Part shown: positions 3,206 through 37,173 of the stretch, piece after piece
How the letters are laid out: every line of letters starts with the position of its first letter
How positions within the stretch are numbered: position 1 is the first letter of the stretch
Assembly (NCBI GenBank): GCA_020831635.1
Contig: JAFIGC010000036.1
Coordinates: 1 to 42,000 of the forward strand
Source of the DNA: Verrucomicrobiota bacterium
GTDB taxonomy: Bacteria; Verrucomicrobiota; Kiritimatiellia; SS1-B-03-39; UBA6053
Length of the DNA stretch: 42,000 nucleotides
Reading direction: 5' to 3'
Position numbers and translations under genes: made by a program
The notes under the pieces: generated by a model
Databases searched by the model: none
The model's input: the letters and a program-made list of their open reading frames with translations, nothing else
What the model was told of the DNA's origin: nothing

Positions 3206-3264
3206 ATCAATCCGCGTGCCGGGGGCAAGCCCGACTCGCGATGGTTTATGAAAGAAATCCCTCT

Positions 3265-4250: not shown

Positions 4251-4290
4251 ACAGGTGCATTTGCGTCTTTTTTCTTTCCGTTTGCGCCAA
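4251..4290 (-). promoter_or_regulatory. Regulatory element A1: CGCAAA direct repeat, 21-bp phase
   Basis: This 40-bp stretch is identical, apart from one base, to 6552-6591. Read on the minus strand it carries two CGCAAA half-sites exactly 21 bp apart (plus-strand TTTGCG at 4260 and 4281) separated by an A-rich run. It lies 66-105 bp upstream of the PEP-CTERM start at 4185. AraC-family activators bind direct half-sites with a 21-bp period, and the regulator gene at 6615-7739 has an AraC-type domain. I infer that this is its operator. Between it and the gene is a small inverted repeat, GTTCA/TGAAC, at 4214-4227. Confidence 0.65.
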
Positions 4291-4361
4291 AACTCCTTGA
4301 GCACCGATCACACGGTTGCTGTCGGTGGGTAGGGAGCCCGCGAAGAGAGGAAAACCCTCGT

Positions 4362-6473
4362 TTAACGTTTGCGGCGGCGGAAGCCGATCAGCCCGGCGAT
4401 TCCGGCGATACCCAGAAGCATCAGCGTGCCGGGCTCGGGGATGGCGAGGATGACGTTGTTGCCGTCCACCATTGCGAACCAAGCGGTTTGGTCCTGCCCG
4501 TCGAATTGAACCGTCCAGTTCAGCTTTCCGTTGGAAGCGCCCAGCACATCCGCGGCGGAGAACAGGGTAGTATTCCCTAGGAAGGCTCCAATATCCGTGC
4601 CCGTCAAACCGACGAGATTGATGATGGTGTTGGTCGTGTTGGAGTCATTGAGATCCAAACTGCCCAGGATGTTGATCAGATCGGAGCTGTTGTCACTGGT
4701 GTCGTATTCCCACAAATAGCTGAACCCGTCATTCAGGATCATGTTGCTGGCAAAGGTGAGCGTGCCCGTGGAGTTGCCCGGACTGAGGGTGGCCCCGCCA
4801 TTGATGGTGGTGGCTCCCAGAATGAAACCGCTGCCGCCCAGGGTGCCGCCGTTGTTCACGGTAACCGGGCCCGTACCGGTGGGGGAGGTGGCGCCGAAGG
4901 TGACGTCCGTGAGGATCTCAACCTGAGAGCCGCTGAAATTGGAGATGGAGACCTCCGTCGCGCTGAGCACTTGATTCACAAAAACGTTCGTGAATCCTTC
5001 CACCGGTTTGCCGTAGTGAAGGCCGGTGGTGTCATTGACCGTAATCGTGGCCGTCGCATTGTTGTTGATGGTTCCGCCAGTGCTGGTCCGATCGAGCGCC
5101 GCTCCACCATTATTGATGATAAGCGTCCCGCCATTGATGGTGGTGCCGCCGGAGTAATTGCTGAACAATGTCTGCCCGGAGAGGGTTTGCGTCCCATCCC
5201 CCGTCATGACAATGGCAAGAACCGAGCTGTCCACGAGTTGGCCCAATGCTCCATCGTATGCATAGGACATCCCCGTCTGCGGGTTGAGGGTCAGCGTTCT
5301 GGTTCCGGATCCCCTTGAGCTGATCGCCGTATTCACTCCATTTCCTGCCGTCGTGATGCCCGGCACGGTCCACGCACTTGTTTCAAGTCTCAGATATCCG
5401 GTGAATGTGGACTCATTCAGCGGAACGGAACGGTTATCGCTAAGGTTTGACGGAACGGAGTTTCCGGTGAGGGTTACCTGCGTCGGGGTCAGGTTTCCAT
5501 TGAGAATATCCACACCGCCCCGGCCTCCGGTCCCAAGGATCAACTCTCCGTTCCAAGTGCTGCCGGCAGCGGCTTGGATACGCTGACGAAACTGCCCCCC
5601 GGTCATGGTGATCGATCCGGAGCCCGTGAAAAGACCCGTGTAGGTCGGATTGCTGTCACCGCCCGCGCTACCGCTTAAGGTGCCGTTCGCTTGGAAGTCC
5701 AGATTGGCGGCAATCGTACCGGTTCGTCCATGCAAAGTGGCGCCATTGGTGCTAAAGCGGATGGTTCCGCCGGAAGTGTTGTCGAGCCGGACGGATCCGC
5801 CCTGAATGTCAATGAGATCGCCACTTGTGAAATTCGTACCGCCCTGCAGCCGAAGTTGGCCATCCCCTTGCAAAATCATGGTGTGGTTGCCGGAGGTTCG
5901 GTTCACGCGCTGTTGTATATTCAACACCCCTAAACCGGTGCCGTTGTTGTTTAACACAAAGGTGTGCGTCCCATCCAAGGTGGTGGTGGAATTGTTTCCC
6001 GAGTTGAGCGTGATCTGATATCCCGAGTTAAGATTTGTATTTTCCCCCACATTCAGGGTGGTCGTCCTGCCGCCGCCCAGAAGCAATCTGTCTCCAGCAC
6101 CATTGAGCGTAAACGTGTGATTCACCCCATTTCCGGAGCCAACCCGTCCGGAGCGGAATTCGTTGTTGGCCGCCGAGAGATTGAGTGAAGCGGCGTTGAA
6201 GGTAGTATTGCCGTTTGCGCGAGGCTCGAGAATTCCCCCTGTGCCGGTAAAGCCGAGGATGTCCCCCGTGGGATCCGCGGTATTGAGCACATGCACATGG
6301 TGGCCGATGGTGACGGTATCGCCTTCTTGTATCGACGGGTTTCCCGATTCCAACCAAGTGGCGTCCTCGTGAAACGCGCCAGCCTGGGCGGAGGTGAATG
6401 TTTGGGCGTGGAGAGGAAATGCGGCGGCGCAGAGAAGTAGCGCAACGGGGGCGAGGAATTTTTGTGTGTTCAT
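4362..6473 (-). CDS. PEP-CTERM protein with autotransporter-like beta-helix repeats
   Basis: A 703-residue secreted protein. The ATG at 6473 gives a clean signal peptide (MNTQKFLAPVALLLCAAAFPLHA); an upstream in-frame start at 6527 only adds a polar tail. The body is Gly/Asn/Thr-rich with many short beta-strand repeats and passenger-type strand motifs such as GGTTINGGTLIINNGG, GPVTVNNGGTLGGSG and TLSPGNSTGTLTF, typical of PEP-CTERM beta-helix surface proteins. It ends with IPEPGTLMLLG, a hydrophobic helix and FRRRKR. It is probably exosortase-processed and held in the extracellular matrix. It lies downstream of XylR-type regulator A on the same strand, with regulatory element A2 between them. 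Function beyond surface or matrix structure cannot be read. Confidence 0.92.
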   Translation of the reverse strand: MNTQKFLAPVALLLCAAAFPLHAQTFTSAQAGAFHEDATWLESGNPSIQEGDTVTIGHHVHVLNTADPTGDILGFTGTGGILEPRANGNTTFNAASLNLSAANNEFRSGRVGSGNGVNHTFTLNGAGDRLLLGGGRTTTLNVGENTNLNSGYQITLNSGNNSTTTLDGTHTFVLNNNGTGLGVLNIQQRVNRTSGNHTMILQGDGQLRLQGGTNFTSGDLIDIQGGSVRLDNTSGGTIRFSTNGATLHGRTGTIAANLDFQANGTLSGSAGGDSNPTYTGLFTGSGSITMTGGQFRQRIQAAAGSTWNGELILGTGGRGGVDILNGNLTPTQVTLTGNSVPSNLSDNRSVPLNESTFTGYLRLETSAWTVPGITTAGNGVNTAISSRGSGTRTLTLNPQTGMSYAYDGALGQLVDSSVLAIVMTGDGTQTLSGQTLFSNYSGGTTINGGTLIINNGGAALDRTSTGGTINNNATATITVNDTTGLHYGKPVEGFTNVFVNQVLSATEVSISNFSGSQVEILTDVTFGATSPTGTGPVTVNNGGTLGGSGFILGATTINGGATLSPGNSTGTLTFASNMILNDGFSYLWEYDTSDNSSDLINILGSLDLNDSNTTNTIINLVGLTGTDIGAFLGNTTLFSAADVLGASNGKLNWTVQFDGQDQTAWFAMVDGNNVILAIPEPGTLMLLGIAGIAGLIGFRRRKR

Positions 6474-6551: not shown

Positions 6552-6591
6552 ACAGATGCATTTGCGTCTTTTTTCTTTCCGTTTGCGCCAA
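6552..6591 (-). promoter_or_regulatory. Regulatory element A2: CGCAAA direct repeat, 21-bp phase
   Basis: The second copy of the 40-bp element found at 4251-4290, with one mismatch. The two half-sites (plus-strand TTTGCG at 6561 and 6582) again start 21 bp apart. It is 79-118 bp upstream of the PEP-CTERM start at 6473 and only 23 bp beyond the end of regulator gene A. The sequences on either side of the two copies differ, so conservation is confined to the element. This points to protein binding rather than recent duplication of the whole upstream region. Confidence 0.65.
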
Positions 6592-20071: not shown

Positions 20072-20778
20072 GGCGTATTCTCCAGTTGCGGGTCCATCAG
20101 TGCCACCGCCGCTTCACGCAGCCGGGACAAGAGGCCCTTGATTTCAGATTGACAAAAGTGACCCGACAGGGCCAGACCGGCAATGGGGGGCGTCCCCACG
20201 GCAACGGCCAAACTGATTTCCCCGCCTTCCCGATCGATGCGGGCATAGCCACGTTTCCGAACCTCTTCGAGCAGCGGTAGAATCGAGGTCTCCCGTCCGG
20301 GAAAATCCCTGGCGATTCGTTCCTGTGAGACGGAGGCGAGCAACACGCGCCCGATGGCGGAATCCATGGCGGGGTAGTCGGCTTCCCGTCCCAGGGAACG
20401 CGCCACCGCCCGTCCGGGCACGTTGAAATACAAGTAACTCACGCTGTTGCGCCATAACACGCCCAAGGCCACCACCCGTTCCGGGCCGCTTAAGTCCGGC
20501 AGGACCGTCATTGCCCGGACAGCGAGGCCGGAGGCGGACAAACTGATGGCGGACAGAGCATGAATCCCCGGCCCCACTCCGTATCGGCGGTCGGGATGTT
20601 GCATTAACAACCCCTGATGTGCCAACGTGCCCAAATACCTTTGCATACGCGTGGGCGTCATGCCCATTTCCCTGGCCAACTCCCGTCCCCGAACCGGTTC
20701 GGCAGCACGCGCAACTGCCAAAAGGACTTCCAATCCTTCCAACAAACTCTGGTTGGGTTGCGCGGGTAACTCTTGCAT
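20068..20778 (-). CDS. IclR family transcriptional regulator
   Basis: A 236-residue regulator with an N-terminal winged helix (about 10-68: SLLEGLEVLLAVARAAEPVRGRELAREMGMTPTRMQRYLGTLAHQGLL) and an IclR effector domain (about 80-230), including GRVLLASVSQERIARDFPGRE and the late GxxLAxAVG-type sequence ISLAVAVGTPP. It is co-translated with the FAD oxidoreductase (ATGA overlap) and probably controls it according to a small organic ligand. A perfect inverted repeat covers its own start codon (20777-20801), which suggests autorepression. A related site lies before the divergent sensor gene at 20883. Confidence 0.92.
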   Translation of the reverse strand: MQELPAQPNQSLLEGLEVLLAVARAAEPVRGRELAREMGMTPTRMQRYLGTLAHQGLLMQHPDRRYGVGPGIHALSAISLSASGLAVRAMTVLPDLSGPERVVALGVLWRNSVSYLYFNVPGRAVARSLGREADYPAMDSAIGRVLLASVSQERIARDFPGRETSILPLLEEVRKRGYARIDREGGEISLAVAVGTPPIAGLALSGHFCQSEIKGLLSRLREAAVALMDPQLENTP

Positions 20779-20801
20779 TTGTCACTTATATAGTGACAAA
20801 T
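20777..20801. promoter_or_regulatory. Operator O1: perfect 10-bp inverted repeat over the IclR start
   Basis: ATTTGTCACT and AGTGACAAAT form perfect 10-base arms around TATAT, giving TGTCAC-N7-GTGACA at the core. It overlaps the start codon of the IclR gene at 20778. A second site with the same spacing lies at 20849. It is the likely binding site of the adjacent IclR regulator, although LacI-type proteins can use similar palindromes. Confidence 0.75.
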
Positions 20802-20848
20802 TTGAAAAAATCAACTGAAATTATAAAAGATTTATGCAAAATCGCTCT

Positions 20849-20867
20849 TGTCACCCAATACGTGATC
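20849..20867. promoter_or_regulatory. Operator O2: TGTCAC-N7-GTGATC
   Basis: This shares the left half-site and the seven-base spacer of O1, with a partly degenerate right half (GTGATC). The centres of O1 and O2 are about 69 bp apart. O2 ends 15 bp before the start of the sensor-domain gene at 20883, so one regulator could control both divergent transcripts. Confidence 0.5.
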
Positions 20868-20882
20868 AGGTACCCTATAGAT

Positions 20883-21779
20883 ATGAGCACCCCACCTGAT
20901 TCAGATGATTTTCATACCCACCTTCCGGTTACTGACGACGATTGGATGGAAATAGGCTTGGTCGGTTTTAACCAGGGAGGCCAGGATGCCCAAATCCTCA
21001 AGGGCATCAATCAATGGCGCAATGAAAAGCGGAACTGGGTGTTGCGGGACGCGGGGCATCAGGAATTCATGTTGTTGAAATTGATCCGGAATCCAAAAAT
21101 AGCCGGCATTATCGCGAACGTCACCGACCACAAACGCATGGAAACGCTGCAAAAATGGGGGAAACCCGTGGTGGACACCTCGGGAATTCTCGCCGACAGC
21201 CCTTTTCCACAAGTGGGGGTCCAACCCGGAGCGGTGGGTGAAATGGGCGGAGAATTTTTAACGCGAAAGGGGTTCAAACGCATCGTGTATGTTTCCGGCA
21301 TGCAGTGGACCTATGAAATGGACCGATGGCAAGGGCTGCGCCAGTACTGTAACGAGCATCAAATCGAGGCGTGGTGGTGGTCATTGAGCGAAGAACGTTG
21401 CGTGGATTCGGTCAGCACGAAATTTCTTCCCGAGGACGCCGATTATGATTCGCGGGATCCTTTTGAATTCCTGTCACGCTTTGAAAAACCCTTTGCCGTC
21501 TTTACGGCCATCGACCGCATGGGCGTGCAAATCTGTGACGGATGCCGGGCCGCGGGCCTGAACGTTCCCGGCGATGTGGCCGTTTTGGGCGTCGATGATA
21601 ATGAATATTTCTGTGAATCCGCCACCCCGCCCCTTTCCAGCGTGATGCTCCCGGGAGAAAAAATGGGACGTGAGGCAATGAAGCTGCTGGAGAAACTGAT
21701 CCGGGGCGATTGCAAAGAAACCTTCGTCCGCCTGGAACCCAAAGGCATCAAAGCCCGGGAATCCACCGAGGGCTACTGA
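20883..21779 (+). CDS. XylR-like sensor domain lacking a DNA-binding domain
   Basis: A 298-residue protein that matches the LacI/periplasmic-binding-like sensor half of XylR-type regulators: IGLVGFNQGGQDAQILKGINQW at the start, then IAGIIANVTD, GVQPGAVGEMGGEFLTRKGFKRIVYVSG, PFAVFTAIDRMGVQICDGCRAAGLNVPGDVAVLGVDDNEYFCESATPPLSSV and GREAMKLLEKLIRGD. In regulators A and B an AraC domain follows this point, but here the protein stops (EGY), and no helix-turn-helix is encoded before or after it. There is no signal peptide, so it is not a periplasmic binding protein. It could be a decoy or partner subunit, or a remnant. It is divergent from the IclR gene. The ATG at 20883 was chosen because upstream in-frame codons run through the operators. 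Confidence 0.8.
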   Translation: MSTPPDSDDFHTHLPVTDDDWMEIGLVGFNQGGQDAQILKGINQWRNEKRNWVLRDAGHQEFMLLKLIRNPKIAGIIANVTDHKRMETLQKWGKPVVDTSGILADSPFPQVGVQPGAVGEMGGEFLTRKGFKRIVYVSGMQWTYEMDRWQGLRQYCNEHQIEAWWWSLSEERCVDSVSTKFLPEDADYDSRDPFEFLSRFEKPFAVFTAIDRMGVQICDGCRAAGLNVPGDVAVLGVDDNEYFCESATPPLSSVMLPGEKMGREAMKLLEKLIRGDCKETFVRLEPKGIKARESTEGY

Positions 21780-22647: not shown

Positions 22648-22878
22648 GACGATCATCTTGGCGAGCGACTCAGACAGGAGGCTCGCAATCGCAAGCAAAG
22701 CTTCAGTTCGTTTATCGCGGAGGCGGGGCGTCTGGCACTGGGGGAATCAGGAACACGAGCGTCCCCGAAGACGTTTAAACTCGTCACGTTTGGAGAAGGG
22801 GGTGTCCTCCATGGGGTGGATCTGGACAAAACCGGGGTTCTGTTGGTCGCTGAAGATGAAGAGGTTTACCGAACATGA
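22627..22878 (+). CDS. VapB-like ribbon-helix-helix antitoxin (pair 2)
   Basis: An 83-residue protein beginning MRTTIILDDHLGERLRQEARNR, then SFSSFIAEAGRLAL, the usual VapB-type ribbon-helix-helix start; the tail (VLHGVDLDKTGVLLVAEDEEVYRT) should bind the toxin. It overlaps the next gene by ATGA. It is not closely similar to the antitoxin of pair 1, so the two modules are not a recent duplication. Confidence 0.88.
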   Translation: MRTTIILDDHLGERLRQEARNRKQSFSSFIAEAGRLALGESGTRASPKTFKLVTFGEGGVLHGVDLDKTGVLLVAEDEEVYRT

Positions 22879-23315
22879 TTCTTCCGGATGTGAATGTGTT
22901 GGTCTATGCCCACCGCCCGGATTCCATCCACAACCATGATGAATATGCATCATGGTTATGCGAAGTGGCGGAATCGCCAAAAGCGTTCGGCCTTTCCGAA
23001 GCTGTTTTGTGCGGTTTCGTGCGCGTGGTAACCAACCGGAAAATTTTCAAACAGCCCACGCCAACAATGGTTGCCTTGGACTTTTGCGATCAATTGAGGA
23101 ACCGACCACAGGCGAGAATTCTAAAACCAGGCACCGGAAATTGGGATCTGTTTCGGACTTTGTGTGGAGGATCGGGTGTCAAGGGAAAGCTTGTCGCGGA
23201 CGCGTGGCATGCCGCGCTGGCCTTGGAATATGACTGTGAATGGATCACGTGTGACGGTGATTTCGCTCGGTTTCCCGGCTTGCGATGGAGGCATCCGCTT
23301 GTAGCAAGGTCATAA
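22875..23315 (+). CDS. PIN-domain ribonuclease toxin, VapC type (pair 2)
   Basis: A 146-residue PIN toxin with the family start MILPDVNVLVYAHRPDS (D5), a central Glu in GLSEAVLCGFVRVVTN, and the C-terminal acidic cluster VADAWHAALALEYDCEWITCDGDFARF. It resembles the VapC subfamily that begins with the sequence LPDVNVLxYA. It is coupled to its antitoxin by the ATGA overlap. It converges with the metal transporter operon, whose last gene ends 26 bp away. Confidence 0.91.
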   Translation: MILPDVNVLVYAHRPDSIHNHDEYASWLCEVAESPKAFGLSEAVLCGFVRVVTNRKIFKQPTPTMVALDFCDQLRNRPQARILKPGTGNWDLFRTLCGGSGVKGKLVADAWHAALALEYDCEWITCDGDFARFPGLRWRHPLVARS

Positions 23316-28654: not shown

Positions 28655-29497
28655 TCAGGTGCGGCGGCGATAACGGACGATTCCAAAAACCGCAGCCATC
28701 CCAAGCAAGAGCAAGGTGCCGGGTTCGGGGATTGCGGTGACTTGCAGGTCCGTCATCGTAAAGTTCGAAGACCCCGCCAAGGCGATCCCGGAGATAGAGG
28801 TCGGAACGTCATTTACACTGTATGTGGATGTAAACGTCGCAATTCCACCGGAAGCCGTTTGAACCCAACTGATGCCATCTCCCGAGCCACTGGAAGATCC
28901 ATCCCCACGCGGAGTTGAGTACGTCGTGATGAATGAAATGAAATCGTTATCGATCCTCTCAATCCGTAACGTCACCGGGTTTTCGATGCTTTGGTTCAAT
29001 GGAGGGCGATGACCGCTGGTTCCCGCCCTTCCGCCATCGACGTCAGCACCGGAAGAAAACGCATCCGGATGATTGATCAGGGGTTGGGTACCGGATCCTT
29101 GGAATGCCGCGGCGGAGTTCACCCCTCCATCGCTATTCCGAGTCGCAATCGATTGGAATACCCCGGTCCAATCATCCGTGGATGAGGTTTGCGCGTCTGC
29201 GGTTACAGCGGGACCATTAAAAAATCCGAAAAAGACTTGGTTTGCGGAATTATTCCCCCCGCCTCCTTCCCATGTGAATGTCGCCTGCACCCAATCGCCG
29301 GGGTTGTCTAAATTGACGGAAGCAAAACTCTGGACCAAACCTTGACGTTGGTCTGTTCCATCACGCGTGAATTGTCCGGTGGCATCATTGAAGGACCCTT
29401 CATTGATGACAAATGGGCTACTAAATGCGACGGATCCGATACATACAAATGATAAGGTTATCATTGTTGTGGTAATTAGGCGTGCTTTCTTCATCAT
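28655..29497 (-). CDS. PEP-CTERM sorted extracellular protein
   Basis: A 280-residue secreted protein: signal peptide (MMKKARLITTTMITLSFVCIGSVAFS), a Gly/Ser/Asn-rich beta domain (FTWEGGGGNNSANQVFFGFF and TLRIERIDNDFISFITTYSTP resemble a jelly-roll sugar-binding fold) and the tail IPEPGTLLLLG, a hydrophobic helix, YRRRT. An exosortase should process it. GGAG lies five to eight bases before the tandem ATG codons at 29497 and 29494. Element B1 lies 94-126 bp upstream and a strong terminator follows. No enzymatic motif was recognised. Confidence 0.9.
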   Translation of the reverse strand: MMKKARLITTTMITLSFVCIGSVAFSSPFVINEGSFNDATGQFTRDGTDQRQGLVQSFASVNLDNPGDWVQATFTWEGGGGNNSANQVFFGFFNGPAVTADAQTSSTDDWTGVFQSIATRNSDGGVNSAAAFQGSGTQPLINHPDAFSSGADVDGGRAGTSGHRPPLNQSIENPVTLRIERIDNDFISFITTYSTPRGDGSSSGSGDGISWVQTASGGIATFTSTYSVNDVPTSISGIALAGSSNFTMTDLQVTAIPEPGTLLLLGMAAVFGIVRYRRRT

Positions 29498-29590
29498 TCA
29501 TCTCCATACGGGGTTCAACTCTTCAATTTTCATTTCCTGCTGATTCATTCTAATTTAACCCTACCAGCCATCCCCTTTTTTGAAAATATA

Positions 29591-29623
29591 GAAAATGTTT
29601 CAAAGCGTTAGGAAAATGTTTCA
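29591..29623 (-). promoter_or_regulatory. Regulatory element B1: GAAAATGTTTCA direct repeat, 21-bp phase
   Basis: GAAAATGTTTCA is repeated exactly at 29591-29602 and 29612-29623, so the half-sites start 21 bp apart. The element lies 94-126 bp upstream of the PEP-CTERM start at 29497. A related copy (B2) lies at the same distance from the next PEP-CTERM gene and beside XylR-type regulator B. Similarity continues for about 20 bp on the regulator side (GATAA-GC). Confidence 0.7.
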
Positions 29624-29703
29624 CGCTGATAAAGCGCAGCAAATTTTTGATTCCCAGTCTCTGTTGATGACCTCCCCGGACCTCAAATTGAGAAAAGCTC
29701 GCA

Positions 29704-29735
29704 AGAAAAAAGCGCCGGCGGGAAGGCCGACGCTT
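29704..29735 (-). terminator. Intrinsic terminator of PEP-CTERM gene (29778-30608)
   Basis: On the minus strand AAGCGTCGGC pairs with GCCGGCGCTT through one G-U pair around a six-base loop, followed by a run of T. It resembles the terminator at 28599-28628 in its arms (GCGCCG core), so the two genes share similar 3' signals. Confidence 0.88.
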
Positions 29736-29777
29736 GGTGGGAAACCACGGGCTTCTTGGCCTGTGGGTCCGTATGCC

Positions 29778-30608
29778 TCAGGTGCGGCGGCGGCGATAAC
29801 CGATCAGTCCCGCCAAGCCGGCCAACCCCAGAAGGACGAGGGTGCCGGGCTCGGGGATGGCGGTGATTTGAACATTGTTCAAGGTGGCCCACGCCCGGCC
29901 ATTAATGACCTGATCTCCTCCATCCAAGGTATACATGAGAAAACCAACCGCCTGCACATCTGAGAAAGAGCGGGTGGTGAAATCACCGGAAACTTTCGTG
30001 AAATCCAGACCATAGGGATCAGAGGTTGGATTGTAGGCGGCCCAGTTTTGGGCGTTGGGGTCGTTGAGGGAGGCGCCGGTCACCTGAGAAATGAAAAAAT
30101 CGCTCCCTTCCTGAACCACCCAGCGGATCTCGTTGCGTTCAGCGCGAGAACGTGTCATGCTGAAAGAGCTGTTTTCATCGAAAGTGATCGCCGGAGACGT
30201 ACTCAAGTTTGTGAAATCCTCTTTTTTCCACATTTGCAGATAGAAGGCGATACCTGGCTCTCCGGCAGTGTCGTATTGGAAGCGAAGATCAAGTTGCGGG
30301 CCATGAGCTCTGGTGGGGTTATTCACGTTTCCCGTGCGGTCGCCTTGCATGTGGTCATATCCCACGTACCAAGTACTGCTTGAGCCGGAAGTGGAGAGCG
30401 GCGTGCCATTTAGATCAAACGCCCGGAAATTTCGGGTGTCATCAACTTCCGGATCTCCCAGACCGTAGTCACCGGCAACGGCCCCAGACAAAGCGTAATT
30501 TCCCGCCGAACCGGTATCCGTGTTGTTCCAGTTCACCAGGACAAAGTCCGCAGAAACCATGCTCATGCAGAAAGTGGCGACCAGGGTTGTATAAATTCTA
30601 TATTTCAT
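29778..30608 (-). CDS. PEP-CTERM sorted extracellular protein
   Basis: A 276-residue secreted protein. The ATG at 30608 has GGAG seven bases upstream and gives the signal peptide MKYRIYTTLVATFCMSMVSA. The body (FVLVNWNNTDTGSAGNYAL, WYVGYDHMQGDRTGNV, FTTRSFSDVQAVGFLMYTLDGG) looks like a single beta-sandwich domain. The tail is IPEPGTLVLLG, a hydrophobic helix and YRRRRT. It is divergent from XylR-type regulator B, with element B2 between them. Its ligand is unknown. Confidence 0.9.
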   Translation of the reverse strand: MKYRIYTTLVATFCMSMVSADFVLVNWNNTDTGSAGNYALSGAVAGDYGLGDPEVDDTRNFRAFDLNGTPLSTSGSSSTWYVGYDHMQGDRTGNVNNPTRAHGPQLDLRFQYDTAGEPGIAFYLQMWKKEDFTNLSTSPAITFDENSSFSMTRSRAERNEIRWVVQEGSDFFISQVTGASLNDPNAQNWAAYNPTSDPYGLDFTKVSGDFTTRSFSDVQAVGFLMYTLDGGDQVINGRAWATLNNVQITAIPEPGTLVLLGLAGLAGLIGYRRRRT

Positions 30609-30702
30609 GATTGTCTCCAAGTCGGGTTCAAAATTCAGGCGGGACATCCGCCCAATTCGTATTATCTGCATCATACCTCCCATTCCCTGTTTTGAATATA
30701 GA

Positions 30703-30735
30703 GTAGATGCTTCATTGCATTAGGAAAATGTTTCA
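30703..30735. promoter_or_regulatory. Regulatory element B2 in the divergent PEP-CTERM/regulator spacer
   Basis: Half-sites GTAGATGCTTCA (30703-30714) and GAAAATGTTTCA (30724-30735) again start 21 bp apart. The element is 95-127 bp upstream of the PEP-CTERM start at 30608, almost the same distance as B1 from its gene, and ends 13 bp before the chosen start of regulator B, so the regulator may also control itself. Confidence 0.7.
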
Positions 30736-30748
30736 ATATGATAAGGCC

Positions 30749-31906
30749 ATGCAAAAATCGCATTCTGCGCCTCTCTTAATCGGCATCCATACCACCTCCC
30801 ACCTGCGGTATTTTCACCGCATCCTGGAGGCGGCGAAACGGTATGCGGAAGCCCAACCCTCTGGGGCTCAGGTTCTCAATATCAGCGGGAGCAAGCTTAC
30901 CGTGATCCGGGATCATCCCGGCCCGTGCGGGTTGCTGACGGACAATGGCGGCGTTTCCGTGGGAGACAAACCGATGGTAGTGGTTTCCCACGGAAGCGAT
31001 TGGCCCGGGGTTGTCAAGGTCATCAATGACGACCAAGCGATTGGTCGTGCCGCCGCCTGGCATTTGATCGACTCCGGTGCAGTGAATCTAGTGTGCGTGG
31101 ATTGGTTTTCCCAGCCGGTGAACGATCTGCGCATGAAAGGCTTTGTGGAAGCCGCCGCCGAGGCGGGCGTGGATTGCGAACATTACGCTCTGGCCAGCCA
31201 CCTGCCAGGAGACCCGCTGGCATTTTTTTCGGCAAGGGAGGCGGAATTATACCGCATCTGGCAAAACCTCCCCCCCAACTCCGGCCTCTTCCTCATGAGT
31301 GATGGAAATGTGAGTTTCTTCAAAGAAAGCCTTGCCAAGCGTGGCGTGGACGATTTTCCGGGCCGGGTTCTTTGTCTGGGCGTGGACAATTTGGGGGAAG
31401 TGCCCGGCAACAATTTGAGTTGGCTCAGCAGTGTGGAACCGGACGTGGAACGTATCGGCCAAACCGCGGCGCAGGTGTTGATCGACTGGATTCAAAGCGG
31501 ACGGCGTCCAACGGAAAACGTGCGAATTCCGCCCCTCGGCGTGGTCGCCCGGTCCTCTACGTTCTGTTCCGACAGAGCTTCTCTCGTGCGCAAGGCCATG
31601 GAACGCATCCGTAGCGGAGCGTGCTTGGACGACACCGCGGAAACCCTCGCGGCTTCCCTGGGCGTCAGCCGGGTCACCCTCTTCCGCCATTTCAAGAGCG
31701 AACTGGGCAAAACCCCGCACGAGGTCCTGCATGCGCACCAGCTTCAGCGGGCCCGCACCCTCTTGCGCGAAACCGACGCCAATCTGGAAACCATCGCCAA
31801 CCAATGCGGCTACAGTCACGCCTCCACTTTCATTCATATGTTTCAGAAAGAACATGGGGTTACCCCCGGCGCCTTTCGAGAAGCGGCATCCGATGCGCCC
31901 CGGTAA
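30749..31906 (+). CDS. XylR-type transcriptional regulator B (LacI-like sensor plus AraC HTH)
   Basis: About 385 residues: a LacI-like sensor (LLIGIHTTSHLRYFHRILEAAKRYA at the start; VINDDQAIGRAAAWHLIDSGAVNLVCVDWF; GRVLCLGVDNLGEVPGNNLSWLSSVEPDVERIG) and a C-terminal AraC domain with two helix-turn-helix units (ETLAASLGVSRVTLFRHFKSELG and LETIANQCGYSHASTFIHMFQ). The start is uncertain: ATG codons at 30707, 30728 and 30749 are all in frame with poor ribosome-binding sites. I prefer 30749 because the first two lie inside element B2. It is divergent from a PEP-CTERM gene and upstream of a GH1 gene on the same strand, which makes a beta-glucoside or related sugar a plausible signal. Confidence 0.9.
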   Translation: MQKSHSAPLLIGIHTTSHLRYFHRILEAAKRYAEAQPSGAQVLNISGSKLTVIRDHPGPCGLLTDNGGVSVGDKPMVVVSHGSDWPGVVKVINDDQAIGRAAAWHLIDSGAVNLVCVDWFSQPVNDLRMKGFVEAAAEAGVDCEHYALASHLPGDPLAFFSAREAELYRIWQNLPPNSGLFLMSDGNVSFFKESLAKRGVDDFPGRVLCLGVDNLGEVPGNNLSWLSSVEPDVERIGQTAAQVLIDWIQSGRRPTENVRIPPLGVVARSSTFCSDRASLVRKAMERIRSGACLDDTAETLAASLGVSRVTLFRHFKSELGKTPHEVLHAHQLQRARTLLRETDANLETIANQCGYSHASTFIHMFQKEHGVTPGAFREAASDAPR

Positions 31907-32080: not shown

Positions 32081-33445
32081 ATGTCATTTCCAAAATCATT
32101 TACCTGGGGCGCGGCGGCGGCGTCCTATCAAATCGAAGGGGCGGCGAAACAGGGCGGACGCGGTCCGGATGTCTGGGACATGCTTTGCCGGGAACCGGGT
32201 CGCATTGAAGACGGTCACAACGGGGACGTGGGCACCGACCATTATAACCGCCTGGAGGGCGATCTGGATTTATTTCAACAAATTGGCCTGCAGGCTTATC
32301 GATTTTCCATTTCCTGGACCCGGATTCTGCCGGAAGGCGTGGGGCGGGTGAATGAAATCGGGCTCGATTTTTATGACCGACTCGTCGATGGCATGCTGGC
32401 CCGGAACATCACCCCGTGGGCCACCCTCTTCCATTGGGACTATCCCCTCGCCCTCTATTGCCGGGGCGGCTGGCTGAACCGCAATTCCATCGACTGGTTT
32501 GCGGAATACACCCAGGTCGTGACGGAACGTCTGGGCGACCGGGTGCAAAATTGGATGACCCAAAACGAGCCGCAGTGTTTTGTCGGTCTCGGACACGGCG
32601 GCGGTGGCCACGCCCCAGGCTTGAAATACCATTGGCCGGAACTGCTCCGCACCGCCCACCACGCCCTGGTCGCGCACGGAGAGTCCGTGAAAATCATCCG
32701 CGCGAACTGTCCCCAAAGCCACATCGGCGCCGCTCCGGTGGCGTGTGTGAGCCTTCCGGAAACGGAATCAGCGGAGGATATCCGCGCCGCGTACGAAGCC
32801 ACCTTTTCCGTCACCGACAAAACCCTGTGGAAAACCCACCTGTTTGCCGATCCCATGGTGCTGGGGCATTATCCCGACGACGCGCTGAAGGTCTTTGCCG
32901 AGGACCTGGAGGGGACGATTCTGGACGGCGACATGGAACGCATCCACCAGCCCCTCGATTTCTTCGGCTTCAACATTTACAACGGACAGCGGGTCAAAGC
33001 CGGACCGGACGGCAAAGCGGTTTCCGTGACCGCCACCCCCGGACATCCCGCCACCACCATGCACTGGCGGGTGGAACCCACCTGCATGTACTGGGCCACC
33101 AAATGGTTTCACGAACGCTACAAGCTGCCCGTGGTCATTACCGAAAACGGCTTGGCCAACAACGACTGGGTTCACCTCGACGGCAAGGTGCACGATCCCC
33201 AGCGCATCGACTTCACCCACCGCTATCTGCTCGAATTGCATCGCGCCATTGAAGATGGCGCGCAAGTGGACGCGTATTTCCATTGGTCGGTCATGGACAA
33301 CTTTGAATGGGCTCTGGGGTACAACCGCCGCTTTGGTCTCATCCATGTCGATTACGGCACCCTCGTACGCACCCTCAAGGAATCCGCCCACTGGTATCGC
33401 GGCGTCATTGAGAGCAATGGCGAAGCCTTGCTTGGAAGGGTTTGA
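32081..33445 (+). CDS. GH1 beta-glucosidase
   Basis: A 454-residue cytoplasmic glycoside hydrolase of family 1, of normal length. It begins FPKSFTWGAAAASYQIEGA, has the family motif YRFSISWTRILP, the acid/base in TQNEP (E163), the nucleophile in VITENG (E355), and the sugar-binding tail FHWSVMDNFEWALGYNRRFGLIHVDY. It should hydrolyse beta-glucosides or related beta-linked disaccharides. It follows regulator B and converges with a sugar ABC importer that could supply its substrate. No signal peptide, so it acts after uptake. AAAAGG lies about 12 bases before the ATG. Confidence 0.95.
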   Translation: MSFPKSFTWGAAAASYQIEGAAKQGGRGPDVWDMLCREPGRIEDGHNGDVGTDHYNRLEGDLDLFQQIGLQAYRFSISWTRILPEGVGRVNEIGLDFYDRLVDGMLARNITPWATLFHWDYPLALYCRGGWLNRNSIDWFAEYTQVVTERLGDRVQNWMTQNEPQCFVGLGHGGGGHAPGLKYHWPELLRTAHHALVAHGESVKIIRANCPQSHIGAAPVACVSLPETESAEDIRAAYEATFSVTDKTLWKTHLFADPMVLGHYPDDALKVFAEDLEGTILDGDMERIHQPLDFFGFNIYNGQRVKAGPDGKAVSVTATPGHPATTMHWRVEPTCMYWATKWFHERYKLPVVITENGLANNDWVHLDGKVHDPQRIDFTHRYLLELHRAIEDGAQVDAYFHWSVMDNFEWALGYNRRFGLIHVDYGTLVRTLKESAHWYRGVIESNGEALLGRV

Positions 33446-36828: not shown

Positions 36829-37173
36829 TCATCGTCCGAGTATGACGCCGATTCCATTGATAACGGCAGTCACATGACGCGGGGCGAGCTTCCCCACTCG
36901 CTCTGTGAGTTGGCTTCGATCCAAAGCAACGATCAAGGAAACATTCGCCACGGAATCTTTCGGAAGGCCTGTTGCTGAAGATTTTAACAAAACGTTGCCA
37001 GGAGCTTTTGCCCATTTGGTGTTACTTGTGAGGGGAACACAGACAACCGTCCCGATATTGCTTCGATTCATGGCATCACACTGCACCACCAAAACCGGGC
37101 GCCTGAAACCTGGAGACGATCCGACGGGCTCGTCGAGATCCGCCCAACACACATCGCCCTGACTCACGACCAT
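36829..37173 (-). CDS. MazF/PemK-like ribonuclease toxin
   Basis: A 114-residue toxin of the MazF/PemK family: GDVCWADLDEPVGSSPGFRRPVLVVQCDAMNRS at the start, VVCVPLTSN in the middle and VANVSLIVALDRSQLTERVGKL late. These are sequence-specific mRNA endoribonucleases. Its ATG overlaps the antitoxin stop by ten bases, so the pair is translationally coupled. Confidence 0.93.
   Translation of the reverse strand: MVVSQGDVCWADLDEPVGSSPGFRRPVLVVQCDAMNRSNIGTVVCVPLTSNTKWAKAPGNVLLKSSATGLPKDSVANVSLIVALDRSQLTERVGKLAPRHVTAVINGIGVILGR

Follow-up and report, generated by a model that had tools for sequence, protein, structure and literature searches.

PEP-CTERM proteins are abundant, and their roles and control are mostly obscure. 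In the open-access literature, no paper was found that combines Kiritimatiell* with PEP-CTERM, and none brings together PEP-CTERM, Verrucomicrobi*, AraC, and regulator. The stretch of DNA analyzed here (42,000 nt, referred to as the window) contains two genes for such proteins, PEP1 and PEP2, close to the gene of an XylR-type regulator, regulator B, and a pair of direct repeats lies upstream of each (B1 and B2, respectively). Does regulator B act on the two genes through these repeats? The answer that we consider probable is that it is a local XylR-type activator of PEP1 and PEP2, working through 21-bp direct repeats, and that the genome has about 30 modules of this kind, B among them.

Regulator B and its neighbors

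Regulator B (385 aa, 30749..31906, + strand) has an N-terminal LacI/PBP1-like ligand domain (PF13377 at 59.7 bits, cut-off 26.5; PF00532 at 25.4, cut-off 22.2) and a C-terminal AraC double HTH (PF12833 at 85.7 bits; PF00165 at 44.5 bits). Its best PDB matches are the E. coli XylR structures 4fe4 and 4fe7 (E 1.4e-25, residues 184-396 aligned). The start is placed at ATG 30749, which matches the N-terminus of XylR (MQKSHSAPLLIGIH...), and not at the ORF-caller's 30707, which falls inside the B2 operator; B2 ends 13 bp before ATG 30749. The AlphaFold models (pLDDT 41 for PEP2, 48 for regulator B) were too poor and were not used. After a gap of 174 bp, regulator B is followed by a GH1 beta-glucosidase gene (32081..33445, + strand; PF00232, with TIGR03356 above cut-off), beyond which sugar ABC transporter genes lie on the opposite strand. 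Because these genes neighbor regulator B, a glycoside-derived ligand is plausible. The pattern search of the genome found no B-type pair before the GH1 gene or the transporter genes. Elsewhere in the window there are a regulator (20619-21779) that combines a LacI-type sensor with an N-terminus for which Pfam gives no DNA-binding family, a PemK/MazF-like toxin gene (36829-37173), and a PIN-domain gene (22875-23315; Pfam).

PEP1 (280 aa, MMKKARLITTTMITL..., 28655..29497, − strand) and PEP2 (MKYRIYTTLVATFCM..., 29778..30608, − strand, divergent from regulator B) are secreted PEP-CTERM proteins. Both have the C-terminal PEP motif, TM helix, and basic tail (PF07589 above cut-off in each). The signal peptide of PEP1 was recognized by eye, and that of PEP2 begins at ATG 30608, within an ORF that extends to 30683. 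Similarity between the two proteins is confined to the C-terminal 33 residues. Exosortase (PF09721) is found at two places in the same genome, G000, at 184.6 and 153.6 bits, and exosortase genes are also present in G005, a genome from another genus of the family.

Operators B1 and B2 and the duplicated cassette

B1 consists of two exact copies (12/12 each) of GAAAATGTTTCA, the PEP1-proximal one at 29591..29602 and the distal one at 29612..29623 (both given on the + strand; the gene strand reads TGAAACATTTTC). In B2, the PEP2-proximal half-site at 30703..30714 is GTAGATGCTTCA, a 9/12 match to GAAAATGTTTCA, and the distal one at 30724..30735 is again exact (both + strand). The half-site is itself an imperfect palindrome (GAAA-N3-TTTC, partly palindromic). 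The sequence-only reading had described both operators as half-sites starting 21 bp apart, lying 94 and 95 bp upstream of their PEP-CTERM starts, with B2 in the divergent spacer of regulator B. All of this is borne out: the starts are at 29591/29612 and 30703/30724, the distances to the ATGs are 29591-29497 = 94 bp and 30703-30608 = 95 bp, and B2 lies between PEP2 and ATG 30749.

The half-site is enriched in the window, where 13 matches to GAAAATGTTTCA with at most two mismatches compare with an expectation of 4.6 (0/100 shuffles reach 13). The paired B-type pattern is unique to B1 and B2 in the 6.0-Mb genome, with 0 control matches. Among 287 other genomes of the class, the pair has a single match, which was rejected as a chance occurrence: it is inside a coding region, and the control has two matches too. 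No ortholog of regulator B (E ≤ 1e-40) is present in 57 related genomes. With no close ortholog of regulator B there and no credible B-type pair in the class, the B site is without cross-species support, and the function of the regulator therefore rests on anatomy and family analogy.

Both operators lie in an 82-bp promoter/operator cassette that occurs twice on the − strand, at 29562..29643 and at 30674..30755, the latter copy taking in the first codons of regulator B. The copies are 77% identical without gaps. By part, identity is 12/12 in the distal half-site, 9/12 in the proximal one, 6/9 in the spacer, and 36/49 in the flanks, so that B1 and B2 are more conserved than the flanks only at the distal half-site. 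By this alignment, B1 and B2 are a copied pair and do not count as two independent occurrences. Because both sit in one duplicated block, their likeness alone is weak evidence. The block spans the predicted PEP −10 through the first codons of regulator B; hence, B1 likely goes back to a copy of the B2 divergent spacer that came to lie before another PEP-CTERM gene. The predicted −10 of PEP2 is TATGAT (30670..30675, − strand), 27 nt past the proximal half-site, comparable to the −10-like peak at 31 nt for CGCAA sites (see below). The hexamer of PEP1 aligned to it is a weak TAGGGT (29558-29563), which is the best PEP1 −10 and a poor match.

One could then suppose that the repeats are non-functional and that B1 and B2 look alike just because the segment was duplicated recently, as would fit a site that, distal half excepted, is overall no better conserved than its flanks. 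The 82-bp duplication leaves the direct repeat at 21 bp within either copy unexplained, however, because copying a block cannot make a 12/12 repeat at exactly +21 within it. Since the distal half-site is also conserved at 12/12 and the 21-bp phase recurs in unrelated modules (see below), we consider this explanation very improbable.

The 21-bp phase, half-site classes, and recognition helices

Genome G000 encodes about 50 XylR-type paralogs and has 107 PEP-CTERM motif matches. By its AroB matches (up to 61% identity), the taxon is Kiritimatiellota-like. Of the XylR-type regulators, 29 have a divergent PEP-CTERM gene no more than 450 bp away; by our estimate, for 107 PEP-CTERM among ~5,000 genes, chance would give less than one pair of this kind. 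Pairing is comparable in G005, for which 24 close spacers were used. Both are draft assemblies, and gene starts were set by a simple signal-peptide rule.

The phase was analyzed by taking, for each spacer and each of the 51 offsets between 10 and 60, the best 14-bp self-match. Offset 21 comes first in the divergent spacers of G000 without B (mean 8.96 vs 7.70, z 4.9), in those of G005 (8.62 vs 7.67, z 3.5), and in PEP-CTERM upstream regions that are not regulator-divergent (8.67 vs 7.73, z 4.5), these statistics being drawn from spacers of related paralogs and hence not fully independent. None of 1000 Markov-1 shuffles reached the observed mean in the divergent set of either genome. Because offset 21 is on top in three sets and exceeds the shuffles in both sets tested, the 21-bp phase is real and extends across the family. 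It is the usual spacing of AraC-family dimers, and an obvious repeat is visible in a minority of divergent spacers only. The operator of regulator B fits this direct-repeat layout of two helical turns, both in B1/B2 themselves and in the family-wide peak.

The phase also bears on whether another regulator, e.g., of the LacI family, binds the repeats, regulator B being a mere neighbor. The half-sites are imperfect palindromes, and the LacI-operator-like sequences GAAACCGTTTCA and GAAAACGTTTCC are present elsewhere in the window, both of which would suit such a protein. Yet the strict 21-bp phase is common to about 20 other XylR/PEP-CTERM modules, B-type pairs are found at the B locus only, and B2 is in the divergent spacer of regulator B itself. 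We thus think it improbable that a protein other than regulator B is the one that binds.

Most identifiable sites are CGCAA-like, this being the commonest half-site core. CGCAA pairs (at most one mismatch) at +21 are found in 21/87 PEP-CTERM upstream regions, against 0-11 at 16 other offsets, and in 11/53 divergent spacers, against 1-3 at other offsets; the core was picked after part of the data had been seen, and it is the offset control that carries the argument. Read toward the PEP gene, −10-like hexamers peak exactly 31 nt downstream of the CGCAA pairs (13/2000 random registers are equally good). In a genome-wide count in five relatives, CGCAA pairs exceed the control in three and do not exceed it in the other two; most are at no known PEP-CTERM gene, which makes these counts uninformative without gene context. 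The constancy of phase and distance claimed in the sequence-only reading holds for the phase, in three sets, and for the distance within B, whereas across modules the distance to the start codon varies (~54-139 bp). Across modules, the distance from site to −10 looks steadier than that from site to start codon.

Module A (helix SRRVLERRC) belongs to the CGCAA class, its two PEP-CTERM genes each being preceded by CGCAAACGG / CGCAAATGC. The modules outside this class are B (TGAAACATTTTC, SRVTLFRHF), C118 (ATCACATTTT, GRRMFELRF), and C144 (TTTGACAAAGAAA, SRSSLERQV). B is an outlier by its half-site as well as by its recognition helix. That A and B differ had been noted from the sequence and is correct, both for the half-sites (CGCAAAYG vs TGAAACATTTTC) and for the helices. 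The further proposal of two switches with separate specificities stands as far as A and B differ from each other, but there are about 30 switches, of which many share CGCAA.

Covariation of half-site and recognition helix is not significant as a general rule: Fisher p is 0.10 for the RRxLE helix against the CGCAA pair, and the rank correlation is ~0 in an all-against-all comparison of helices and sites. General covariation is thus not demonstrated. There is one clear cross-genus case, in which L127 (G005) and C230_42725 (G000) have TGCGTT-T-ACAAAATA--TTT-CGCTTAAACG as a common operator and near-identical second recognition helices (WPSASHMSVMF / WPSASHMCVMF). When spacers are ranked by B-likeness against helix similarity, the top two are L149 (SSVTLRKRF; GAAATATTTTC) and L147 (SRMTLLRHF), which are suggestive only as B-like leads: other offsets reach equal scores, and L147 matches in the opposite orientation. 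L147 (G005:C46), with a helix close to that of B, carries TGAAACAATTGA / TGTAACATTAGA at +21, ~30 bp upstream of the regulator start and before a divergent secreted-protein gene.

B is not alone in having two PEP-CTERM genes. The loci A, B, C118, and C272 have two each, with no detectable similarity between the mature proteins; the upstream DNA of each pair has 40 to 139 bp in common, at 72-98% identity, including the 21-bp repeat. Operator cassettes are shared in this way in at least four loci, which supports local regulons, each small and made up of exosortase substrates that are unrelated to one another.

In module A, a near-identical 40-bp cassette (GGCGCAAACGGAAAGAAAAAAGACGCAAATGCA) is seen at both PEP-CTERM genes (window ~4255-4288 and ~6557-6590). 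The C118 locus (L073, ~4265-5800) has a B-like layout, one XylR-type regulator with two non-homologous PEP-CTERM genes, and the same ATCACATTTT repeats ~75 bp from either start codon. At the C272 locus (L077; PEP-CTERM starts at 3225 and 6569), 127 bp of upstream DNA are 75% identical in front of unrelated genes and carry CGCAA repeats and TATAAT/TATGAT. Operators of the TTGTCGCAAAATAACAC type occur at PEP-CTERM genes on three contigs of G000 (C258 7887, C185 401, and C243 12562), with no regulator identified nearby; these three genes are possibly one regulon in trans.

Proposed mechanism and known systems

The binding of regulator B, its ligand, activation, and autoregulation we infer as follows. 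Regulator B would be a cytoplasmic XylR-type sugar sensor, joining the LacI/PBP1-like ligand domain to the AraC double HTH. Its dimer would bind the pair of direct half-sites (on the PEP-CTERM strand, TGAAACATTTTC), which are two helical turns apart. In B2 and B1 it would lie directly before the −35 region, covering about −72 to −40 relative to the predicted transcription starts of PEP2 and PEP1. By position, it should contact the polymerase at the PEP promoter, and the ligand-bound form would activate both unrelated exosortase substrates together. The B1 operator would derive from the B2 spacer copied before the second PEP-CTERM gene. The predicted promoter of regulator B (TTGCAT-N16-TATGAT, 30715..30742, + strand) is overlapped by the distal B2 half-site, so that binding at B2 may also limit synthesis of the regulator. 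Its +1 would be on or beside the ATG, giving a leaderless transcript.

The same overlap is what one would expect if regulator B bound the repeats chiefly to repress the PEP-CTERM genes and its own gene, with the ligand releasing it, and LacI-type sensor domains are often found in repressors. The sites lie, however, upstream of the predicted PEP promoter and not over it, at the fixed −10 distance that is the geometry of AraC/XylR activators, and E. coli XylR, the closest solved relative, is an activator. Repression is hence unlikely, and activation of PEP1 and PEP2 by regulator B is the reading that we retain.

More tentatively, and with somewhat less than an even chance, the exosortase-sorted surface proteome of this lineage may be under some thirty sugar-sensing XylR-type switches, each divergent from a PEP-CTERM gene and some recruiting further, non-homologous PEP-CTERM genes through copied cassettes, in which case each glycan sensed would alter a distinct small set of proteins. 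Genome-wide modules of one regulator and one surface protein, with readable operators, offer testable regulons and a route to the inducing sugars, and the paralog series is useful for studying specificity change in the AraC family.

Other systems share part of this arrangement. PEP-CTERM genes in Proteobacteria are regulated by RpoN and PrsK-PrsR (PMC9850573). The −24/−12 box of that system was not found at the PEP-CTERM genes of the window (no TGGC-N7-TGC within 250 bp), and it occurs in 1/87 PEP-CTERM upstream regions, against 0.8 by chance; RpoN control is not seen. The YSIRK-adjacent AraC regulator TIGR04094 is likewise encoded beside the gene of a sorted surface protein, but it belongs to the LPXTG/sortase system of Gram-positives, and regulator B matches it weakly in the HTH (36.9 bits), far under the cut-off of 200 bits. 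AraC at araBAD binds the direct half-sites I1-I2, two helical turns apart and just upstream of −35. Spacing and place of the half-sites are thus the same as here, and the sensor domain is different. In Bacteroides thetaiotaomicron, 16 AraC-type regulators have their own direct repeats, at an average of 21 bp, i.e., two helix turns (PMC3878776). These hybrid two-component systems (HTCS), with a DNA-binding domain of AraC type, resemble the present modules in that they form a large set of paralogs, every one of which has a direct repeat of its own and controls adjacent genes (PMC3878776), but they are membrane sensors of polysaccharide fragments that control SusCD loci, whereas here a cytoplasmic sensor is found beside PEP-CTERM genes. 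E. coli XylR (4fe4, 4fe7) has the same domain order as regulator B, with similarity across the C-lobe of the ligand domain and the HTH, and it has two binding sites in its target promoter (PMC8534289). The differences are that the targets here are exosortase-type surface proteins and not a xylose operon, and that about 50 paralogs are found in one genome.
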